A stretch of 17,642 nt of DNA from Bdellovibrio sp. (GTDB taxonomy: Bacteria > Myxococcota > SpSt-1050), in contig DYEF01000062.1 in the NCBI GenBank assembly GCA_020725805.1, positions 1 to 17,642 of the forward strand, in the 5' to 3' direction. Below, piece after piece: positions 57 to 7,050 of the stretch (the first letter of the stretch is position 1; each line of letters opens with the position of its first letter). The notes below the pieces were generated by a model. It saw only the letters and a program-made list of their open reading frames with translations, ran no database searches and was not told the origin of the DNA. Both the position numbers and the translations under genes were made by a program.

Positions 57-90
57 TCGCTTCGGTACACTCAATTACTCAGCGACCTTA
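57..90 (+). repeat. Intergenic hairpin element, divergent copy
   Basis: Stem TCGCT (57-61) pairs with AGCGA (81-85) around a 19-nt loop that starts TCGGTA and ends TTACTC. This matches the loop ends of the element at 143-176 (TCGATA ... CTACTC). The stem differs from that copy (TGGCT/AGCCA) but keeps pairing, a compensatory change. The bases after the stem (CCTTAGTATTA) resemble those after the 143-176 stem (CCTTAATAGTC). Confidence 0.55.
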
Positions 91-99
91 GTATTAAAA

Positions 100-134
100 G
101 GACATTGAGTAGGCGAAGCCTTATCGAAATGTCC
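100..134 (-). repeat. Intergenic hairpin element, inverted copy
   Basis: On the minus strand, stem GGACATT (134-128) pairs perfectly with AATGTCC (106-100) around a 21-nt loop that starts TCGATAAGG and ends CCTACTC. Loop ends match the other family members, but the stem sequence is entirely different while fully complementary. This copy lies in opposite orientation to the two that flank it. Confidence 0.55.
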
Positions 135-142
135 ATCTTGGC

Positions 143-189
143 GGTGGCTTCGATACGCTAACGCTACTCAGCCACCTTAATAGTCCTAT
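143..189 (+). repeat. Intergenic hairpin element, reference copy
   Basis: Stem GGTGGCT (143-149) pairs perfectly with AGCCACC (170-176) around a 20-nt loop beginning TCGATACGC and ending GCTACTC. The 46 bases at 144-189, which include the trailing TTAATAGTCCTAT, are matched at 7005-7050 with one mismatch (175 C against 7036 A). It is clearly a dispersed repeat. I see no open reading frame or transposase in it; it resembles REP/MITE-type palindromic repeats. Confidence 0.75.
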
Positions 190-6934: not shown

Positions 6935-6962
6935 CTTCAGCCCTTCAGTCTTCAGCTCTATA
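6935..6962 (+). repeat. CTTCAG short tandem repeat, three units
   Basis: CTTCAG at 6935-6940, 6943-6948 and 6950-6955, followed by CTCTATA. It parallels 201-220. A block of A residues (6962-6968) follows. Confidence 0.5.
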
Positions 6963-6969
6963 AAAAAAC

Positions 6970-7010
6970 TGTGGTCTGTGGACTGTGGACTTCTTCTATG
7001 GACTGTGGCT
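6970..7010 (+). repeat. 7-bp tandem repeat, second locus (right block)
   Basis: TGTGGTC, TGTGGAC, TGTGGAC (6970-6990), a 6-base break, then TATGGAC and TGTGGCT (6997-7010). The last unit runs directly into the hairpin element that starts at 7005, so the two repeat types are physically joined here. Confidence 0.65.
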
Positions 7011-7050
7011 TCGATACGCTAACGCTACTCAGCCAACTTAATAGTCCTAT
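7005..7050 (+). repeat. Intergenic hairpin element, second locus
   Basis: Identical to 144-189 at 45 of 46 positions. Stem TGGCT (7006-7010) pairs with AGCCA (7031-7035) around the same 20-nt loop. The outer two stem pairs of the 143-176 copy are lost here (G7005/A7036). It lies between the convergent kdd and nuoN genes. Confidence 0.75.

Follow-up and report, generated by a model that had tools for sequence, protein, structure and literature searches.

Hairpin repeats with a fixed loop and a compensating stem in a Bdellovibrio sp. genome, and the linkage of their class to small GIY-YIG nucleases elsewhere

The stretch of DNA analysed here (the window, 17,642 nucleotides) is the whole of contig C57 in the assembly GCA_020725805.1 of a Bdellovibrio sp., a genome of 3.29 Mb in 115 contigs that is 98% complete. 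It carries four short hairpins (Table 1), three of them crowded near its start and one solitary, and a preliminary description made from the letters alone had placed all four correctly, with the stems and loops that we find. A covariance model built from 22 copies of the family recognises each of them: the class D hairpin (match at 55-87, E 1.2e-5), the class B hairpin (E 2.8e-6), the class A hairpin beside it (E 4.1e-8) and the solitary one (match at 7004-7037, E 7e-5). The loop pattern TCGRTA...TACTC occurs six times in the window, four times with a stem of 5-7 bp and twice without a stem. When folded as single-stranded DNA, three of the four hairpins beat their own shuffles (z -2.3, -4.1 and -2.7); the remaining one is not clearly better than its shuffles (z -1.1). 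The solitary hairpin lies between the ends of two convergent genes and carries the right flank of the three-hairpin unit. No part of the window matches a known RNA family in Rfam.

Tandem arrays of a short repeat of about 7 bp, (CCTTCAG)n and (CTGTGGA)n, stand beside the hairpin units at 192-261 and 6935-7012, and similar ones surround many other hairpin units of the genome, as if several repeat types shared intergenic islands.

Table 1. Hairpins of the window, the composite unit that three of them form, and the four classes found across the genome
Feature	Position	Strand	Stem	Loop or remark
Composite three-hairpin unit D(+) B(-) A(+)	57-189	+		recurs in the genome
Class D hairpin	57-85	+	TCGCT (57-61)/AGCGA (81-85)	TCGGTACACTCAATTACTC (62-80)
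Class B hairpin	100-134	-	GGACATT/AATGTCC	TCGATAAGGCTTCGCCTACTC (107-127)
Class A hairpin	143-176	+	GGTGGCT (143-149)/AGCCACC (170-176)	TCGATACGCTAACGCTACTC (150-169)
Solitary class A hairpin	7006-7035	+	TGGCT (7006-7010)/AGCCA (7031-7035)	7011-7030
Class A (genome)			GGTGGCT/AGCCACC	TCGATACGCT(NN or NNN)GCTACTC
Class B (genome)			GGACATT/AATGTCC	TCGATAAGGCTTCGCCTACTC and variants
Class C (genome)			(A/G)GGCGTT/AACGCCC	TCGATATGCTCGCTTTGCTCACTACTC
Class D (genome)			xGTCGCT/AGCGACC	such as TCGGTACACTCAATTACTC

The family extends well beyond the window. Genome-wide, the loop is far more frequent than chance would give: the pattern TCGATAN{4,16}TACTC has 75 matches, against 8 for a reversed-pattern control, and the covariance model has 80 matches at E<=1 among the 150 of 1723 candidates that were scored. 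The whole-genome model search proposed in the preliminary description returns about 80 copies. Judged by stem and loop, the 55 copies that were read out completely belong to four classes. The idea that the stem is the variable part of the element thus needs qualification: the stems do differ and yet pair, but across the genome they are not free, being drawn from four fixed sets. In this genome the loop measures 19-27 nt and the stem 5-7 bp. Read on the GAGTA strand, nearly all copies have AAGG at the stem foot, while the outer positions of the opposite arm drift without compensation; visible constraint is limited to roughly the inner five pairs. The consensus is a fixed loop, 5'-T-TCGRTA...TACTC-A-3', which belongs to a wider class TTCGA...CTCA, with a stem that is free as long as it pairs and that bears a short tag at one of its feet (AAGG here).

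The classes are usually joined into a single unit, some 130 bp long and ordered D(+), B or C(-), A(+), which on contigs C82 and C99 is lengthened by further alternating hairpins. The unit at 57-189 is 95% identical to one on contig C110, and positions 1-178 of the window are 98% identical to the start of C82. The three hairpins at 57-176 should therefore be counted as a single composite, repeated elsewhere as a block, and not as separate copies. The identity between two units can be as high as 98% (C57 against C82) or around 70-75%, and so the family contains both young and old copies. By simple ORF calling, all 24 clusters examined are intergenic, which, together with the copy number and the alternating orientation, supports the likeness to REP-type palindromes noted in the preliminary description. 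The clusters lie in tandem (10), divergent (4) and convergent (3) gaps, and the other 7 are at contig edges. About eleven contig ends lie within some 500 bp of such a hairpin, which indicates that the repeats break the assembly; the contig of the window itself begins within a repeat. At the start of contig C20 (1-450), a hairpin unit lies near the apparent end of an rhs-like gene, and the flank between the two is partly common to C57 and C82. A (GATA)n tetranucleotide run lies near the end of contig C97 (within the last 200 bases or so), about 200 bp from a hairpin unit.

Are the stems kept paired by selection? In the alignment of the genome's own copies the covariation score is 0.514, against 0.212 +- 0.032 after shuffling and at most 0.13 with slid partners. 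Cells changed on both sides number 31, against 12.4 in shuffles, and such changes occur in four of the seven stem pairs, although, since this signal rests on four classes, it represents few events. A stronger test is provided by a scan of 84,980 species with the pattern TTCGATACGCTN{2,3}GCTACTCA, in which only the loop and the closing pair are fixed and the pairing of the stem is not selected. At least 114 stretches were found, and those listed come from Treponema, Anaerolineae, Bacteroidota, Dependentiae, Herbaspirillum, Actinobacteria, Ignavibacteria and others, with widely different stems (GGTGGTT, GCTCCCT, CTTGATT and others). Among the 128 matches listed, pairs 2-4 are Watson-Crick in 121, 114 and 92, against 63, 48 and 42 expected. 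When each organism contributes one stem, again among the matches listed, they form in 51, 47 and 43 of 53; shuffling gave 25, 21 and 19 on average and never more than 36, 35 and 29. These shuffles leave relatedness in, yet the stems vary between phyla and within them. A fixed loop with a compensating stem is a real property of these elements and it crosses phyla. Of the two explanations that had been offered for the compensating stems, selection on folding is the one that the data favour, as pairing is kept while the stem varies both in this genome and across phyla. Renewal of the stem upon insertion is not supported, in view of the fixed classes, their fixed order in the composite, the retention of (AA)GG at the 5' foot in nearly all copies and the uncompensated outer part of the other arm.

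The distribution of the repeats is patchy. Among 195 genomes of the same phylum, only that of the window is clearly above control for TTCGATA...TACTCA (43 against 1), and the covariance model has no match in 28 relatives, including one from its own genus. Many other phyla nevertheless contain this loop. Isolation within the phylum combined with presence in distant ones fits either horizontal arrival or repeated origin. Another genome of the phylum, G071, which is a single contig, has 75 copies of a related hairpin, TTCGACARGCTCA, no W-x-R-x-K-[KR] GIY-YIG gene (see below) and only a sub-threshold match to a Y1 transposase. The sister genome could not be used for an empty-site comparison, because its closest NuoN is just 25% identical.

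When 3301 ORFs located near hairpins were clustered, a small GIY-YIG protein stood out; the remaining clusters were common gene types or overlapping loci of one place, and provide no other candidate. In the hairpin-bearing genomes, hairpins lie no further than 400 bp from nine small GIY-YIG genes, in many cases on either side of the gene, and the motif W-x-R-x-K-[KR] is common to all nine. No hairpins are found within the same distance of 15 other small GIY-YIG genes or of 7 UvrC loci in those genomes. The motif was noticed after the fact, and for this reason it was tested on new material. A sample of the same phylum was collected by profile search, irrespective of any hairpins nearby. In it, TTCGA...CTCA hairpins, whose stems reach 12 bp, accompany six of the nine genes that score high and bear the motif, compared to none of 21 lower-scoring ones (p 1.4e-4). 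On viral contigs, hairpins are present at 3 of 3 motif-bearing loci and at 0 of 13 others, where two loci are near-duplicates and the search was partly seeded with the motif itself. On plasmids the corresponding figures are 2 of 3 and 0 of 4. In total, TTCGA...CTCA hairpins lie within 400 bp of 20 of the 24 W-x-R-x-K-[KR] genes, as opposed to 0 of 53 other small GIY-YIG genes and 0 of 7 UvrC genes (0 of 60 together; Fisher p ~1e-15). Four motif-bearing genes lack hairpins, and in three of these the second catalytic motif is damaged (YYVDHT, SLCVGHS, a stop). In a tree of GIY-YIG proteins the flanked genes occupy one region, together with a second subfamily. One Dependentiae genome has two paralogues, each between its own inverted pair of hairpins, and the two pairs have different loops; further flanked examples are Sphingomonas parapaucimobilis WP_347092679.1 and a gene of Methylobacterium bullatum. 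Our literature search for the hairpin sequence, or for GIY-YIG proteins with palindromes, returned nothing relevant.

This linkage of a GIY-YIG subfamily to a hairpin class is seen in other genomes only. In the assembly of the window, which is broken at repeats, a GIY-YIG domain was found in UvrC and in no small protein, so that the repeats are either orphans or have their partner in an assembly gap. Of 20 hairpin genomes, only 8 yielded a motif-bearing GIY-YIG gene (with a few of the small GIY-YIG matches left unread). Nor does copy number bear a simple relation to the presence of the nuclease within one genus; 75 and 25 copies are found in genomes without it (G071 and G066), and 42, 48, 32 and 4 in genomes with it (G067, G072, G074 and G069). 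Either the repeats persist longer than the enzyme, or an enzyme encoded elsewhere serves them in trans, or the link is indirect.

The preliminary description had compared the family with REP/RAYT-type palindromes, and had these been true REPs or REPINs spread by a RAYT (a Y1 tyrosine transposase), the gene could have decayed or be hidden in an assembly gap. Indeed, the single Y1 transposase that turned up in the genome is a RAYT-like fragment, truncated where its reading frame runs off the end of contig C60 (1615-2070 of the stretch examined there), a partial match to the REP-associated transposase model NF047646 with 58 bits, below the cut-off of 80; the loops of classes A-C include GTAG on one strand (within GAGTAG), and the orientation of the hairpins alternates as in BIMEs. 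However, no hairpin lies near the fragment, GTAG is confined to the loop and class D reads GAGTAA instead, and an unpaired GT[AG]G at the 5' foot of the stem is absent, the foot being AAGG on the GAGTA strand. Moreover, 6 of the 20 hairpin-bearing genomes have no Y1 match, and among 60 Y1 loci only two have a TTCGA...CTCA hairpin within 400 bp, both with stems of 4-5 bp, and none has one with a stem of 6 bp or more. The flanks and the distribution of Y1 genes speak against a RAYT as the partner of these hairpins, and we regard a hidden or decayed RAYT as very unlikely.

The intergenic position and the conserved pairing would also be expected if the hairpins acted as RNA, that is as 3' untranslated stem-loops involved in stability, termination or protein binding, with selection on the RNA fold. 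In our opinion this is very unlikely, given that the clusters lie in gaps of all three kinds, that G-T is not over-represented among the mismatches at pairs 2-5, whichever strand is read (4 of 15 and 7 of 15), that no T run follows the stem and Rfam has no match, and that the linkage to the nuclease would be left unexplained. Somewhat less easy to dismiss, though still unlikely, is the notion of passive relics: intergenic repeat islands with old, inherited stem classes, copied by slippage and recombination without an active partner. The covariation within this genome amounts to four stem classes in a fixed order, single copies decay without compensation, the clusters lie amid short tandem repeats, and no partner enzyme was found in the genome; all of this suits relics. 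The covariation across 53 organisms (among the matches listed) and the linkage to the nuclease do not. A passive, relic-like state may nevertheless describe this particular genome today, after loss of the partner.

We consider these elements to be REP-like repeats that are probably substrates of a site-specific W-x-R-x-K-[KR] GIY-YIG nuclease acting on folded single-stranded DNA. Single-stranded DNA at the repeat, on the lagging strand or on the incoming strand during transformation, would fold; the nuclease would read the ends of the loop, the closing T-A pair and the foot, and would nick the hairpin. Under such recognition, a change in one arm of the stem would be retained only together with its compensating partner. 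The unit could then be spread by repair or by recombination with other copies, or the host could exploit the cuts. As to the genome of the window, we infer that it once had such a nuclease or acquired its repeats together with one. A comparable system is the Ssn family of GIY-YIG nucleases, reported in a 2025 paper to be site-specific and to cut a Neisseria repeat in single-stranded DNA. The likeness consists of a small stand-alone GIY-YIG protein, a dispersed repeat linked to it and a proposed action on single-stranded DNA; the differences are that the repeat class is another one and that the present assembly has no such enzyme.

Two known groups of repeats invite comparison. GTAG REPs, REPINs and BIMEs, which go with a RAYT (PMC3733652, PMC6006769), are likewise intergenic palindromes in tens of copies, with composites of alternating orientation and stem subfamilies that differ by complementary changes. 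The family described here has no GTAG foot and no neighbouring RAYT, and its loop is fixed while its stem varies. It is REP-like in a wide sense, and departs from GTAG REPs in the two features that define them, the foot and the RAYT. The CGTC REPs, including dRS3 of Neisseria, are hairpins scattered between genes that carry a tag at one foot (Di Nocera et al. 2013, PMC3733652); they form subfamilies with complementary stem changes, are spread widely over phyla and are said to lack a dedicated transposase (PMC3733652). Our family resembles them in all these respects. CGTC REPs, however, have a CGTC (TGTC, CCTC) foot, a stem of 8-9 bp, a loop of 4-5 nt and a CCA tail (PMC3733652), a set of features that the copies of this genome do not show: here the foot is AAGG, the conserved stem has about 5 bp, the loop has 19-27 nt, and it is the loop that carries the conservation.

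Many bacterial genomes contain palindromic repeats without a known mobilising enzyme, and the 2013 survey left the mobiliser of the CGTC class open (PMC3733652). With one GIY-YIG subfamily closely linked to one hairpin class, and with covariation suggesting that the strand is recognised in its folded form, the question of a mobiliser becomes testable at the bench with a single small protein and a handful of oligonucleotides. Looking for a constant loop on a stem that varies but still pairs should also find repeats that plain searches for sequence similarity would miss. It is tempting to speculate, though we do so tentatively, that tagged palindromes without a known mobiliser (TTCGA...CTCA, perhaps also CGTC REPs) make up a widespread system of two components. 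In it a tiny GIY-YIG nuclease would recognise the loop and foot of a folded hairpin, leaving the stem to drift as long as its changes compensate; each subfamily of the nuclease would diversify along with its type of hairpin, and genomes such as this one would keep their repeats after losing the enzyme.

Genes of the second GIY-YIG subfamily are possible partners of further repeat classes. Judged by eye, some genes of this neighbouring subfamily, for example in Sinorhizobium meliloti, lie between repeats resembling CGTC REPs. Such genes are found between other palindromes, such as CATCCCTGTGCTCGTCACAGGGAT and CCCCGTGCTTGACACGGGG, also by eye, and the loci include Sinorhizobium meliloti pSymB (L367), Novosphingobium aromaticivorans pNL2 (L369) and Planktothrix agardhii p1 (L365).
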